DNA of 64,000 nucleotides. It comes from Halorussus limi. GTDB taxonomy: Archaea > Halobacteriota > Halobacteria > Halobacteriales > Haladaptataceae. Both the position numbers and the translations under genes were made by a program. The stretch spans positions 1,302,001 to 1,366,000 of the forward strand of contig NZ_CP096659.1 in assembly GCF_023238205.1 (NCBI RefSeq). The letters are read 5' to 3'. The notes under the pieces were generated by a model that was not told where the DNA came from, made no database searches, and was given only the letters and a program-made list of their open reading frames with translations. Shown piece by piece: positions 27,162-51,464 of the stretch (positions within the stretch are counted from its first letter, which is position 1; each line of letters starts with the position of its first letter).

Positions 27162-27974
27162 ATGCAAGCAGTCACGCTCGGTCCCGAGGGGACCTACTCG
27201 CACCGCGCCGCCAGCGCAGTCGCCGACGAGGTGGAGTTCCGCGAGTCCGTCACCGCCATCGTAGAGGCCGTCGCGGACGGCGAGTTCGAGCGCGGAGTCG
27301 TCCCCATCGAGAACAGCATCGAGGGGAGCGTCACCGAGACGCTCGACGCGCTGACCGACCGCGAAGTCGCCGCGGTCCGGGAAATTGTCACTCCGATTCG
27401 CCACGCGCTCCTCGCCCAGCGCGACGACTTCTCGGTCGTCGCCAGCCACTCCCAAGCGCTGGCGCAGTGCCGAAGCTACCTCGAAGCCGAGTACCCCGAC
27501 GCCGACCTCGAAGCGGTCGCCAGCACCGCCCGCGGCGTCGAACACGCCCGCGAGAACCCCGACGTGGCGGGCATCGGCCACCCGGACAACGCGAGCGGCG
27601 ACGACGACCTCCGGGTCGTCGCGGAGGGGATTCAGGACCGCAACTCGAACGCGACCCGCTTTTTCGTCATCGCGCCGGTCGCCGAACAGTCGGAGGCGGG
27701 CGGCAAGTCCTCGCTGGTGGTCTACCCGAACGCCAACTACCCGGGTCTGCTGCTCGAACTGCTCGAACCCTTCGCCGACCGGGACGTCAACCTCACGCGG
27801 GTCGAGTCGCGCCCGAGCGGCGAGCGACTGGGCGACTACGTGTTCCACATCGACTTCGCGGCCGGTCTCTACGAGGAGCGCGCACAGGAGGCCATCGCGG
27901 ACGTGGAGGACATCGCGGAGAACGGGTGGGTCCGGCGACTCGGGTCGTACGACACCGAACACGTGGTCTACTGA
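27162..27974 (+). CDS. pheA: prephenate dehydratase
   Basis: 270 aa. Converts prephenate to phenylpyruvate in phenylalanine synthesis. N-terminal PDT domain begins LGPEGTYSHRAA, with PIENSIEGSV near 46-55 and the catalytic Thr-Arg-Phe in NATRFFVI. The C-terminal ACT domain (about 185-270), which binds Phe for feedback, carries the ESRPSGERLGDYVFHID signature. No chorismate mutase domain is fused. TATA-like CTTTTAG about 30 bp upstream suggests a leaderless mRNA. Confidence 0.95.
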   Translation: MQAVTLGPEGTYSHRAASAVADEVEFRESVTAIVEAVADGEFERGVVPIENSIEGSVTETLDALTDREVAAVREIVTPIRHALLAQRDDFSVVASHSQALAQCRSYLEAEYPDADLEAVASTARGVEHARENPDVAGIGHPDNASGDDDLRVVAEGIQDRNSNATRFFVIAPVAEQSEAGGKSSLVVYPNANYPGLLLELLEPFADRDVNLTRVESRPSGERLGDYVFHIDFAAGLYEERAQEAIADVEDIAENGWVRRLGSYDTEHVVY

Positions 27975-28018
27975 GGTGGACCCGACTCCCGCCGACCGAC
28001 CGCTCGCCGACTATTCGC

Positions 28019-28205
28019 CGACCTCCCACCGACCTCCCACCGACCTCCCACCGACCTCCCACCGACCTCCCACCGACCTCCCACCGACCTCCCACCGACC
28101 TCCCACCGACCTCCCACCGACCTCCCACCGACCTCCCACCGACCTCCCACCGACCTCCCACCGACCTCCCACCGACCTCCCACCGACCTCCCACCGACCT
28201 CCCAC
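28019..28205. repeat. 17 perfect tandem copies of the 11-mer CGACCTCCCAC
   Basis: The unit CGACCTCCCAC repeats without a mismatch from 28019 to 28205 (187 bp), flanked by degenerate CCGACC/CCGCCGACC triplets on both sides. Because 11 is not a multiple of 3, all frames on both strands stay open with an 11-residue period (for example SHRPPTDLPPT), but no start codon or promoter supports translation. It lies between the pheA stop and the hsp20 promoter. Perfect identity suggests recent slippage expansion and likely copy-number variation between strains. Confidence 0.97.
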
Positions 28206-28250
28206 CGACCGACCACCCGCCGACCACCCTCGGACCGGCCTCCCGGTCTG

Positions 28251-28260
28251 AATTTTTAAG
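28251..28260 (+). promoter_or_regulatory. TATA region of the hsp20 gene
   Basis: AATTTTTAAG at 28251-28260, 46 bp after the end of the 11-bp repeat array and about 50 bp before the hsp20 ATG, leaving a short 5' leader with GGGGGAAACT just before the ATG. Confidence 0.6.
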
Positions 28261-28308
28261 ACCCAACGCGTCGGACACCCAACGGGCGACCGGCGCCCGG
28301 GGGAAACT

Positions 28309-37931: not shown

Positions 37932-38339
37932 TCACTCGCGGGAGCGAACGACGACCTCGTTCTCGCGGACGAAGCGTCGAACTCGCTCGGGAAACGACCC
38001 GGTTCCGGGCCACTCCGCGTCGGCACCGAGAGCCACCGGGTCGCCGACGTAGACGTCGACCTCCGGGTCGCTCTCTGAAGCGTCTCGCGGAACTGATACT
38101 CGGACGTACAGTCCGCTCTCGACCCCTTCGTACGCGTCTATCGCTTCGATTTCCTCCGTGCGGAGGACGCGCCCGGACACCGTTCCGCCCGGCGCGAGCG
38201 TAGGGTACCTCCCATCGACGCGGTGGAGACCGTGGAGGGTCGCCTCGCCGAGAAACTCGTACGTCGAGACGACGCTGGCGACTCGCTCCGGGTCGGTCAG
38301 CGTCCCATAGACGAACAACTGTTTGCTGCACTCGGTCAC
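37932..38339 (-). CDS. gamma-glutamylcyclotransferase-like (AIG2/GGCT fold) protein
   Basis: 135 aa from a GTG at 38339 (VTECSKQLFVYGTLTDPERV). FVYGTL is the diagnostic nucleotide-like loop of the BtrG/GGCT fold; the catalytic Glu is probably in AIDAYEGVESGLYVR. The fold releases 5-oxoproline from gamma-glutamyl amines; the substrate here is unknown. The first codons lie within the left half of the dispersed inverted-repeat element, so the element may have supplied or altered the start. A TTG at 38366 is an alternative start. Confidence 0.75.
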   Translation of the reverse strand: MTECSKQLFVYGTLTDPERVASVVSTYEFLGEATLHGLHRVDGRYPTLAPGGTVSGRVLRTEEIEAIDAYEGVESGLYVRVSVPRDASESDPEVDVYVGDPVALGADAEWPGTGSFPERVRRFVRENEVVVRSRE

Positions 38340-38450
38340 TCGCGTTACTCGTTCCCTCGTTTGCAAAACGTTGATGAAAAGCCTGCTCTCCTCCCTCCGC
38401 TTCGCTCCGGTCGTCGCTTGGCCCGCTCGCTCAGTGCGTTCGCTCGCAGT
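38316..38450. repeat. dispersed CGCTCG-rich inverted-repeat element, copy A
   Basis: Left arm CAACTGTTTGC (38316-38326) and right arm GCAAAACGTTG (38363-38373) match in 9 of 11 inverted positions around a TTCGCTC-type loop; GATGAAAAGCC follows directly. A distal block at 38421-38450 matches copy B (40208-40237) in 26 of 30 bases. This copy covers the GGCT gene start rather than a gene end. Confidence 0.7.
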
Positions 38451-40033: not shown

Positions 40034-40112
40034 CTACCGCTCGTCGATGGGAACCCACTCTTCCTGCTTCGACCCGGTGTACTTCGCTCGGGGCCGAATC
40101 AGGCGGTCGTCC
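40034..40112 (-). repeat. displaced duplicate of the citrate synthase 3' end
   Basis: 67 bp (40035-40101) are identical to the 3' end of the citrate synthase gene (40254-40320), continuing to about 40112 with two mismatches. It carries its own stop codon (TAG, complement of 40034-40036) in place of TAA and could encode the last ~25 residues (AKYTGSKQEEWVPIDER). It has the same orientation as the gene and lies just past the element. Confidence 0.95.
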
Positions 40113-40253
40113 GCAACCTTTTGCTACGCTCGTCACTCGCTTCGCTCGCTCCTTCGCTGGCAAAAGGTTGATCAAAAGCCGTCGGTCGTCCCGGTGGTCC
40201 TCCCTCGGCCTGCTCGCTCACGTCGTTCGCTCGCAGTACGATTACCCGAGGTT
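40113..40253. repeat. dispersed CGCTCG-rich inverted-repeat element, copy B
   Basis: About 140 bp between the two citrate synthase tails. It has a perfect 11-bp inverted repeat, CAACCTTTTGC (40114-40124) and GCAAAAGGTTG (40160-40170), a 35-nt TTCGCTC-rich loop, GATCAAAAGCC directly after, and a distal CTCGCTCA/TCGTTCGCTCGCAGT block. No start codon or long reading frame. Between them, element plus gene tail form a 219-bp unit. Confidence 0.9.
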
Positions 40254-41392
40254 TACCGCTCGTCGATGGGAACCCACTCTTCCTGCTTCGACCCGGTGTA
40301 CTTCGCTCGGGGCCGAATCAAGCGGTTGTCCTCGTACTGCTCCAACACGTGGCCGATCCAGCCACCGACGCGCGACATGGCGAAGATGGGAGTGTAGAGG
40401 TCGATGGGGATGCCCATCTGGTAGTAGGTCGAGGCCGAGTAGAAGTCCACGTTCGGCGCGAGACCCTTCTCGTTCTGCATGTACTCCTCGATGGCGACCG
40501 ACATCTCGTACCACTTGGTGTCGCCCGCGGCCTCGCCCAACTCCTCGCTCTTCTCGCCGAGAATCTTCGCGCGGGGGTCCTTGACGTTGTAGACGCGGTG
40601 GCCGAAGCCCATGATGCGCTCGCCGCGGTCGAGGGCGTCGTCGACCCACGTCTTGGCGTCCTTGCCGCTCTCGTCCAGTTCCTTCAGCATCTTCATGACG
40701 TTCGCGTTCGCGCCGCCGTGGAGCGGTCCGGCGAGGGTGCCGACCGCGCTCGTGATGGCGCTGTGGAGGTCCGAGAGCGTCGAGGACGTGACCATCGAGG
40801 AGAACGTCGAGGCGTTCAGGCCGTGGTCTGCGTGGAGGACCAGCGCCATGTCGAACGTCTCGGCCAGCACCTCGTCGGGTTCCTCGTCGTTGAGCATGTA
40901 GAGGAAGTTCTCGGCGTGGCCGAGGTCCTCGCGGGGTCCGACCGGGTCGTCGCCGTCGCGGATGCGCTTGAACGCCGCGACGACGGTCGGAATCTTCGCC
41001 GTGATGCGCCGTCCCTTCCGGAGGTTGACCTCGCGGTCGGTCGGGTCGGCATCGGAGTCGTCGGGGTCGTTGGCCGAGAGCATCGACACCGCGGTCCGGA
41101 GCGCGGCCATCGGTTCCTCGTCGGCCTCGGCGAGCTTTCGCACCGTGTCCAGCACGTCCTCGTCGAGTTCTCGCTCGGCGGCCATCGAGGCCGAGAACTC
41201 GTCGAGTTCGTCCCGTGTCGGGAGTTCGCCGTGCCAGAGCAGGTAGAGGACCTCCTCGTAGCTCGCGTTCTGCGCGAGGTCCTCGATTTCGTACCCGCGG
41301 TAGATGAGGCGACCTTCGTCGCCGTTGATGAAGCTAAGTCCTGACTCTGCGACGACGACGCCCTCTAACCCTTTCTTGACCTCTTCTGACAT
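40253..41392 (-). CDS. citZ: citrate synthase
   Basis: 379 aa. Condenses acetyl-CoA and oxaloacetate to citrate at the entry of the citric acid cycle. Catalytic residues appear in HADHGLNAST (His), MGFGHRVYN (His) and NVDFYSA (Asp); GPLHGGANANVMKM is the family signature. The start ATG at 41392 gives MSEEVKKGLEG. The 3' end ends in TAA (40253-40255) and is duplicated beyond the adjacent element, so the gene appears intact but its tail may have been replaced by an element-borne copy. Confidence 0.96.
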   Translation of the reverse strand: MSEEVKKGLEGVVVAESGLSFINGDEGRLIYRGYEIEDLAQNASYEEVLYLLWHGELPTRDELDEFSASMAAERELDEDVLDTVRKLAEADEEPMAALRTAVSMLSANDPDDSDADPTDREVNLRKGRRITAKIPTVVAAFKRIRDGDDPVGPREDLGHAENFLYMLNDEEPDEVLAETFDMALVLHADHGLNASTFSSMVTSSTLSDLHSAITSAVGTLAGPLHGGANANVMKMLKELDESGKDAKTWVDDALDRGERIMGFGHRVYNVKDPRAKILGEKSEELGEAAGDTKWYEMSVAIEEYMQNEKGLAPNVDFYSASTYYQMGIPIDLYTPIFAMSRVGGWIGHVLEQYEDNRLIRPRAKYTGSKQEEWVPIDER

Positions 41393-49503: not shown

Positions 49504-49519
49504 CGGGGGAGTGCGAAAT

Positions 49520-50044
49520 ATGACGACCTACCCCACGAACTTCTGTCCGCAGTGCGGCGCGGAACTGACTCGACGCGACGTTGAGGGGCGCGAGCGCCGG
49601 TTCTGCCCGGACTGCGAGCGCGTTGTCTGGCGAAATCCGGTTCCGACCGCCGGAGTCGCGGTCGTGGGGCCGAACGGCGTCCTCCTGACCGAGCGCGCGG
49701 TCGAACCGGGCGTCGGCGAGTGGGCGGTTCCCGGCGGTCACCTCGAAGCGGAGGAGACCCCGCTAGAGGCCGCGGTCCGCGAACTCCGCGAGGAGGCCGG
49801 CGTGCGGGCGGACCCCGACGACCTGCTACTGCTCGATACCTTCACTGCCACGCCGTTCGAGGACAAACACGTAGTCTCGGTCGGGTTCGCGGTCCGGGAC
49901 GAGGACACTACCGGAACGCCGGACGCCGGTCCCGAAGCGACGGCCGTTGGCTGGTTCACGCCGGAGTCGTTCGGCGACGGCGGCGAGCGGTTCCACCCGC
50001 CGCACGGCGAGCGGTTCCGGAACGCGTGGGACCGACTCGGGTAG
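49520..50044 (+). CDS. NUDIX hydrolase with N-terminal zinc ribbon
   Basis: 174 aa from ATG 49520. Zinc ribbon CPQC...CPDC at about 9-36, then the Nudix box GGHLEAEETPLEAAVRELRE followed by EAGV (GX5EX7REUXEEXGU complete) near 75-97. The ribbon-plus-Nudix layout is that of NADH pyrophosphatase-like (NudC) proteins, although this one is shorter. Third gene of the 47.4-50.0 kb run. Directly downstream lies a displaced copy of the tiaS tail. Confidence 0.88.
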   Translation: MTTYPTNFCPQCGAELTRRDVEGRERRFCPDCERVVWRNPVPTAGVAVVGPNGVLLTERAVEPGVGEWAVPGGHLEAEETPLEAAVRELREEAGVRADPDDLLLLDTFTATPFEDKHVVSVGFAVRDEDTTGTPDAGPEATAVGWFTPESFGDGGERFHPPHGERFRNAWDRLG

Positions 50045-50077
50045 CTACTTCCCGGGTGAATCGGCGCGTCGAACCCC
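50045..50077 (-). repeat. displaced, degenerate duplicate of the tiaS 3' end
   Basis: CTACTTCCCGGG then TGAATCGGCGCGTCGAACCC matches the true tiaS end (50172-50205: TCACTTCTCGGGA then TGAATCGGCGCGTCGAACCC) with three or four substitutions and one deleted base. It starts with its own stop codon complement (CTA = TAG) in place of TCA (TGA), exactly as in the citrate synthase case. It begins one base after the NUDIX stop. Confidence 0.85.
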
Positions 50078-50171
50078 GACCTTTTGCTGCGCGAGCGCCC
50101 CGAATGCGCTCACTTGCAAAACGTCGATGGAAAACCGCACCGCGGTCGTCCGGGACACCACGTTTCCTGCG
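50078..50171. repeat. dispersed CGCTCG-rich inverted-repeat element, copy C
   Basis: 94 bp between the two tiaS tails. Arms GACCTTTTGC (50078-50087) and GCAAAACGTC (50116-50125) pair at 9 of 10 positions around a GCGCGAGCG...GCGCTCAC loop, then GATGGAAAACCGC and GCGGTCGTCC, which also occur in related form after copy B. No reading frame. Shorter than copy B at its distal end. Confidence 0.85.
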
Positions 50172-51464
50172 TCACTTCTCGGGATGAATCGGCGCGTCGA
50201 ACCCGCCCCGAACTAGCGGCTTGGCGATGTGCCGCCGCGCTTCCGGGGGCACCTCGTACCACCCGAGTTCGAGGTCGCGGTCCACCTCGCGCTCGACTTT
50301 CCCGTCGGCCGTGGTCTTGCAGTCACGACACCGGTAGCCCTGTCCGGCCCCGGCGCTCTCCATCGACAGGCCGCAGTCCGGGCAGTCCGGCGTGACGAGT
50401 TCGGTGGCGTTGAGGTCGCGGACGGCGAACTTCTCCAGTTTCAGGGTCCCGTCCGAGACCTCCCCGCAGGCCGCGATGCGGTCGCCGGGCCGGAGGGCGC
50501 GCACCCGGTCGCGGAAGCGTTTGGTGGGTTCGAAGGCAGCGCACTGCAGGGTCTCGCGGGCGTCGTCGTCCGCCTCGTCGCCTTCGAGTGAGAGGAAGAC
50601 GTGGCCGCCGCGCCGGGTCTCGGGCGCTCGGGCGACCCTTCCTTCGACTCGGTAGGCGCGGCCGTCCTCGACCGTCGCGAGGCCGTCGGCGTCTCGGAGG
50701 TGGGCGTCGGTGCCCTGATTCGTCACGAACAGCGCGCGGCGCGAGACGGGTTCGCTCTCGATGGCTTCGGCGACTTCCCGGACGACCTCGGGGTCGTCGC
50801 CCCGGATGCCGTGGAGAATGGGACCGGGCGTGTGCGGGACGCAGACGAGTTCGCCGGTCTCGCGGTCCACGGTGTCCCACGCCGCGGGGTAGGCCGCGTT
50901 CGCGGCGTCGAAGACCGACTCGGCGTCCACCTCGCGGGGCGTCCCGACGCGCTCGGGGTCGCGGTAGGAGATGCACTCGTAGGTCCAGTCTCCGCCCTCG
51001 AACGCCGCCCACGCGCCGACCGCCGCGAGCGCCCCGATTCTCCCGCGGCCCACCTTCCACCCCGCGCTCCGGTAGTCCGCGGCCTCGATGGCCTCCTCGG
51101 CGTCTTCGACGGTGAGACGGTCCCGGACCGCGTCGCGGGCGAACGACGCGACTGCGTCCGGTACGTCCTCGGGGTCGCCCGGCGCGACGACGAGTCCGGG
51201 GTTGGTCCGCGGGTCGCCCGTCTCGGCAATTCGGGCGACTTCCTCGCGAGCGATTTCGAAGGCCTCCTCGGGGTCGGCGTCGGTGTGGACCGCGAGCGCG
51301 GCGTTCCCGCGGGTCTTGTGTTCGACCGCGGGGTTGAGTCGCACCAGTAGCGTTCGCTCCACCGCGGCGAACTCCCCGACGCGCTCGGCGATTTCGGCCG
51401 CGAGGTAGGTCGTACACATCCCCAGTTCGCGGGAGTCAGTGTCGTCGACGCCGATGACTGTCAC
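50172..51464 (-). CDS. tiaS: tRNA(Ile2) 2-agmatinylcytidine synthetase
   Basis: 430 aa from GTG 51464. TiaS joins agmatine to C34 of the AUA-reading tRNA-Ile with ATP, an archaeal-specific decoding modification. N-terminal IGVDDTDSRELGMCTTYLAAE, a middle catalytic domain (GRGRIGALAAVGAW), an OB-fold at about 280-350 (EGRVARAPETRRGG) and a zinc ribbon near the C-terminus (CPDCG...CRDC). Length fits the family. Its 3' end is duplicated beyond an adjacent element. Confidence 0.95.
   Translation of the reverse strand: MTVIGVDDTDSRELGMCTTYLAAEIAERVGEFAAVERTLLVRLNPAVEHKTRGNAALAVHTDADPEEAFEIAREEVARIAETGDPRTNPGLVVAPGDPEDVPDAVASFARDAVRDRLTVEDAEEAIEAADYRSAGWKVGRGRIGALAAVGAWAAFEGGDWTYECISYRDPERVGTPREVDAESVFDAANAAYPAAWDTVDRETGELVCVPHTPGPILHGIRGDDPEVVREVAEAIESEPVSRRALFVTNQGTDAHLRDADGLATVEDGRAYRVEGRVARAPETRRGGHVFLSLEGDEADDDARETLQCAAFEPTKRFRDRVRALRPGDRIAACGEVSDGTLKLEKFAVRDLNATELVTPDCPDCGLSMESAGAGQGYRCRDCKTTADGKVEREVDRDLELGWYEVPPEARRHIAKPLVRGGFDAPIHPEK

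Follow-up and report, generated by a model that had tools for sequence, protein, structure and literature searches.

Integrative elements and casposons at the 3' ends of genes and tRNA genes have the gene tail on both sides, and the gene stays intact. Cases of integrative elements at tRNA 3' ends are given in PMC3119063. The PATEs of Haloquadratum make no target duplication and have ends that match IS605-type elements, and SMR-A/B have terminal inverted repeats, make no target duplication and are mostly inserted in other mobile elements (PMC3119063). REP sequences are GTAG- and CGTC-tagged extragenic palindromes (PMC3733652, PMC12306157). In compact genomes there is little neutral space for repeats to occupy. 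Here we describe a haloarchaeal hairpin element, E, that lies between two copies of a gene tail at tiaS and at other genes.

The window, the whole stretch of DNA that was analysed, is 64,000 nucleotides of the haloarchaeal chromosome of a Halorussus species (G000:C1:1302001-1366000). The host gene, tiaS (50172-51464, minus strand), was assigned as tRNA-Ile2 2-agmatinylcytidine synthetase from a match to the model NF040849 TiaS (E 1e-106) that falls below that model's curated cut-off. A sequence-only reading of the window had claimed that the 3' end of tiaS is repeated with a TAG stop in place of TGA, and alignment bore this out. The tail copy used by tiaS (X; sequence, repeat finder and alignment) occupies 50172-50205 on the minus strand and ends in TGA (TCA at 50172-50174). 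The displaced tail (X'; repeat finder, alignment and orthologues) occupies 50045-50077 on the same strand and ends in TAG (CTA at 50045-50047). In a gapped alignment 29/30 paired bases of X and X' are identical, with one 1-nt gap, and the repeat finder paired 50054-50076 with 50182-50204 at 96%. About the final 31 bases of tiaS reappear at 50046-50076, where one base is mismatched and one is absent. Between the two tails lies E, a 94-bp hairpin element on the plus strand (50078-50171) delimited by sequence and family comparison. Its foot arms are GACCTTTTGC (50078-50087) and GCAAAACGTC (50116-50125); the second arm is followed by GATGGAAAACCGC at 50126-50138, where the core ends, and a spacer runs to 50171. 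X' starts right behind the TAG of a convergent NUDIX gene (49511-50044, plus strand), whose stop abuts it. Since X' is short of one base, the C-terminus of TiaS is not encodable there in a single frame, and X' is unlikely to be a coding unit, in line with that reading. The NUDIX gene is found between thrC and tiaS in several species; H. aquaticus (G012) lacks it, and there the displaced tiaS tail comes directly after thrC (L021).

An element of the same design had also been proposed for citZ, a gene unrelated to tiaS, and it is present there as a full-length E of 141 bp (40113-40253, plus strand; sequence comparison). The citZ tail copy in use lies at 40254-40331 (minus strand; alignment). The displaced citZ tail, with the ancestral 3' region after it, lies at 40035-40112 (minus strand; alignment and element-free relatives). 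The two tails are identical at 76/78 positions with 141 bp between them, and the citZ stop TAA falls in the 40252-40254 region, its first base just outside the tail copy in use. A third E copy, at 38316-38383 from foot to core (plus strand), has no tail duplication. Besides these three copies in the window, the E core has two weaker matches elsewhere in the genome. At 27934-28272 the window also holds about 21 copies of an 11-bp tandem repeat within an open frame.

Comparison with sister species, which the sequence-only reading had called for, revealed the element-free state at both tiaS and citZ, and none of the element-free sister species carries a displaced tail at either gene. In G019, G023, G024 and G026 the NUDIX and tiaS stops directly adjoin each other (TAGCTA), and the displaced tiaS tail of the window forms exactly this junction. 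At citZ, G012 and G014 lack the element, and their 3' region matches what follows the displaced tail. At sufS, E and a 24-25 bp repeat of the tail set G012 apart from its sister G026; in G012 the displaced copy retains the TAA and downstream sequence of G026, and the gene has a new TGA. These comparisons show that the displaced copy holds the ancestral position, with the original stop retained at tiaS, citZ and sufS, and that the gene now uses the E-side tail copy, often with a new stop codon. Taken together, the element-free orthologues and the retained junctions indicate that a segment of E plus tail came to lie inside the gene and that the original tail was pushed out.

To compare flanks, the sequence left of each E was aligned with the sequence right of the same E for about 109 copies. 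The flank scores were bimodal: 16 of the roughly 109 copies scored 17-143 and the rest 13 or less. Mismatched flank pairs, used as a control, reached at most 16, except for two at 21 and 30 that may be orthologous loci. The gene tail is therefore duplicated around E in about one copy in seven, and E then lies inside the gene end. In this X-E-X' layout one tail copy ends at the foot of the E hairpin and the other begins at the gene's stop. The left tail copy is 4 nt or less from the foot in 15/16 duplicated cases (10 nt at L134), and the right copy mostly starts at the stop codon of a convergent gene. At one of the 16, L033, the duplicated tail is that of a tRNA, and the repeat may be a neighbouring tRNA gene. 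Genes affected repeatedly include tiaS, citZ, a phosphoribosyltransferase gene, elp3 and an M29 aminopeptidase gene. Repeat lengths vary from 17 to over 100 bp among many unrelated genes. Tandem X-E-X-E arrays were observed at the phosphoribosyltransferase gene (G013, G014), with the second unit decayed in one species. A sister family, E2, which carries CACCTTTTGC and GCAAAANCTGGACCAAAA, has the same tail duplication in 8 of about 31 copies.

The occurrence of one architecture at two unrelated genes had been taken to argue against chance, and the counts agree. A tail repeat was found at 17/190 ORF ends near E and at 5/818 without E. Four of these five have E2 between the copies, at three loci (L077, L104 and L019), the two matches at L077 being two overlapping ORFs; the fifth, at L038, is an internal repeat. 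An unbiased scan for direct repeats covered 464 kb of the window's genome and 400 kb of H. aquaticus, so that genome-wide rates rest on 864 kb. In the 464 kb, non-coding short-range direct repeats were few, and the clear gene-tail repeats were those of citZ, tiaS and the M29 aminopeptidase gene; in the 400 kb they were those of tiaS and M29. Every gene-tail repeat in these scans has E, E2 or an E2-like remnant in its gap. One more pair, of 19 bp and without E, may be due to chance. On the control gene ends and the unbiased scan, chance was rejected as the source of the tail repeats. In H. aquaticus, near G012:C1 position 1298122 (L262), a 115-bp duplication of the M29 aminopeptidase tail leaves only 24 bp between its copies; this gap, which contains AAAAGGTG, is probably an E2 remnant.

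E belongs to a haloarchaeal hairpin-repeat family. A pattern search found E in 20/28 genomes of the host's taxonomic family, with a maximum of 20 copies in one genome, and sparsely in the rest of the order. The reversed pattern, used as a control, had zero matches in the 28 genomes and zero in the search of the wider order. The consensus is CRACCTTTTGC, a variable hairpin and then GCAAAASGTYGATS'AAAA; a second hairpin region frequently lies downstream. The foot arms enclose the first hairpin only, so that the hairpin foot marks one end of E, and the far end is variable. The fold has a median z of about -4.8 relative to shuffles. The bases after the stem are GTYGAT, in which Y varies and pairs within the foot. 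Covariation is seen in the foot pair (A-T 61, G-C 37, others 5) and between positions S and S' (C-G 71, G-C 30, others 2). In G016, G018 and G025 the apical hairpin is species-specific and common to the copies of one genome, as if homogenised. Other palindromic inserts (CCGGAAGACAAACCGCGTCTTCCGAGC...) are nested in E between the core and the second hairpin at L025, L129 and L135. Searching the E loci against Rfam 15 returned nothing but a tRNA at gathering scores in eight loci, and one weak unrelated match outside E (E 0.05); E matched no described RNA family.

Many E copies start 0-3 nt past the stop of an ORF on their own strand, 2 being the commonest distance, or no more than 2 nt from the 3' end of a tRNA. 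In about nine species E stands right behind the stop of the DNA polymerase D large-subunit gene (3'-end loci L172, L163, L174, L176, L177, L167 and L171), and these copies have a locus-specific foot, TGAAC/GTTCA, the two sides of which vary in concert. Such placement after stops, the compensating foot at the polymerase gene and the foot covariation across the family (98/103 copies A-T or G-C) would fit a functional 3'-end element, whether a terminator, an RNA-stability hairpin or a REP-like translational brake; in E. coli, REPs lying no more than 15 nt from a stop are reported to lower translation (PMC12306157). E would then be selected after stops, and the tail duplications would be accidental, tandem and tolerated because the gene is kept intact. 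We consider this account improbable. E is patchy among close species at the same gene, its apical hairpins are shared within a genome and differ between species, and a tandem duplication of tail plus E leaves no element-free ancestral downstream region of the kind seen at tiaS, citZ and sufS. A functional 3'-end role is possible in addition to insertion.

The X-E-X' layout, its recurrence, the edge at the foot, the element-free sites and the ancestral downstream junctions are observed directly. Their best explanation, to which we give an even chance of being right, is the insertion of a mobile hairpin that duplicates the gene tail up to the stop, is maintained by conversion and can be excised. 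E would be a non-autonomous, REP/PATE-like mobile hairpin repeat. That E moves is suggested by its copy number across the family together with the zero matches to the reversed pattern. At tiaS, E would have inserted antisense to the gene within its final ~30 bp, and everything between the insertion point and the stop would have been duplicated in the event. The gene would have retained a complete tail on the E side, with the original tail beyond E in its ancestral place. A long staggered target duplication or template switching is a candidate first step. The duplication would be long and variable in length, and visible in genes only where it covered the whole tail; the survivors inside genes would be those in which it reached the stop codon. 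Gene conversion between the two tails could slow the decay of long displaced tails, and recombination between them could excise E precisely and leave the gene intact. E copies outside genes had no duplicated flank in the flank comparison, so the duplication is not a constant product of insertion. Y1 transposases are absent from three E-bearing genomes (G000, G011 and G018), no E core was found near 5 Y1 loci, and neither an E nor an E2 core was found in 96 kb around 30 TnpB loci. No transposase is linked to E, and an origin as an IS200/IS605 derivative was rejected on the Y1 and TnpB results.

Most duplications end inside the stop codon, and the stop codon mostly differs between the two tail copies. 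The former speaks against insertion, as a duplication of random length would not mostly end in a stop codon unless the non-coding part has since diverged. Divergence of this kind is the likelier source of the edges, which would belong to old duplications, since the duplication at L077 runs several bases beyond the stop; a mechanism directed by the stop codon was rejected on these grounds. The main rival to insertion, which we judge rather unlikely, is homology-facilitated illegitimate recombination. Here a donor fragment holding the 3' part of the gene plus E, and ending at the foot, would recombine homologously upstream in the gene and be joined end-on in the recipient's tail, and the tails would be donor and recipient alleles rather than an on-the-spot duplication. 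This would directly explain the switching of stop codons, and it fits homology that stops at a stop codon mostly differing between the copies, as between orthologues, an E edge that is always the foot and a displaced tail that retains the recipient's downstream region. However, the copies are identical over 44-72 bp at some loci (L037, L087), though later gene conversion could yield that, the L077 duplication again passes the stop, and a reason is needed for DNA ends at the foot. Two further candidates were set aside. Resemblance of the insertion site to the E core was noted at sufS and at the DNA polymerase D gene and is inconsistent across genes. A plain tandem duplication of the tail together with E accounts for some arrays (the phosphoribosyltransferase gene in G013 and G014) and fails at tiaS, citZ and sufS, because the displaced tail keeps the element-free ancestral downstream region.

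The sequence-only reading had taken the greater divergence at tiaS to suggest an event older than that at citZ. This did not hold: age is not readable from divergence here, as the displaced citZ tail has apparently been kept similar by gene conversion, and the citZ insertion is common to three species and the tiaS insertion to two. At citZ, G000, G020 and G024 have one common junction and, beside it, one fixed, trans-specific difference between displaced and used tail. At 12 further sites that vary, the displaced tails agree each with the gene tail of its own species, and the same tracking was seen at the phosphoribosyltransferase gene in four species (8 sites). Judged from these alignments, the tracking implies concerted evolution, a mark of gene conversion. 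In haloarchaea, gene conversion between genome copies is very efficient (PMC8223754); here it would act between two tails on one chromosome. Because concerted evolution keeps the tails similar, their similarity does not date the event. The ~30-bp tiaS repeat has drifted, and may be too short for efficient conversion. The idea of decaying displaced tails beside a preserved tail in the gene itself was an oversimplification: displaced tails decay at some loci and are homogenised at others, and it is the displaced copy that holds the ancestral position. In polyploid archaea, similarity between duplicated gene ends may thus mean gene conversion rather than recency.

The tiaS insertion is common to G000 and H. 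aquaticus, with the same junction and an alignable spacer. G026 pairs with G012 in both trees (0.98-0.999), yet its tiaS junction is intact and element-free; paralogues and missing data affected the first concatenated tree, and only this pairing, present in both trees, was used. This suggests a precise loss of E, by excision, in G026. Transfer between G000 and G012 stays an alternative because the tree position of G000 is not settled.

Tail duplication points to a route by which small repeats could settle inside genes without disrupting them. If a hairpin can sit harmlessly inside conserved gene ends, with an apparently reversible footprint as seen at several genes across three genera, repeats would have an uncommon means of spreading, and gene pairs that abut an uncommon way of becoming separated. 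A literature search of partial coverage found no description of gene-tail duplication around such repeats, a weak sign of novelty.

Like integrative elements, E has the gene tail repeated at both ends of the insert, with the gene intact. The locus could accordingly be read as what is left of an integrative element whose attachment sites were gene 3' ends, its cargo gone and the tails being attL and attR, and E copies at tRNA 3' ends are in keeping with this. We regard it as very improbable, since the same short hairpin recurs in all cases without cargo or integrase, the repeats vary in length (17 to over 100 bp) in many unrelated genes, and the E copies at tRNA ends have no clear tail repeat. 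Integrative elements carry integrase cargo, whereas the inserts at tiaS (94 bp) and citZ (141 bp) contain neither integrase nor casposase and the target genes are many and unrelated; the variable repeat length also speaks against a casposon. In MITEs, terminal inverted repeats come with a constant short target duplication, whereas the duplication around E spans 17 to >100 bp and is absent from most copies. SMRs, at about 80-110 bp, resemble E in their unexplained movement and in having no resident transposase, but they make no target duplication, whereas 16 E copies have duplicated flanks. PATEs are closer to E. Both are haloarchaeal, non-coding and patchy between close strains or species, with a palindrome near the end and too little length to code. 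Unlike PATEs, E has duplicated flanks in 16 of about 109 copies, and its ends are unlike those of resident IS605-type transposons, no core having been found at the Y1 or TnpB loci. REPs and E are both short hairpins in many copies, often just after stop codons, and the CGTC REP superfamily likewise lacks a dedicated transposase. E differs from REPs in its greater length, in having neither a constant GTAG or CGTC tag nor an unpaired one, and in being flanked, in one copy in seven, by duplicate gene tails. E is REP/PATE-like, but its tail-duplicating habit fits no family that could be checked. We tentatively raise, as a somewhat doubtful proposal, a new class of archaeal mobile hairpin that enters gene ends, copies the tail at once and leaves the gene whole, with conversion keeping the tails similar and permitting a clean removal that would make the insertion reversible.
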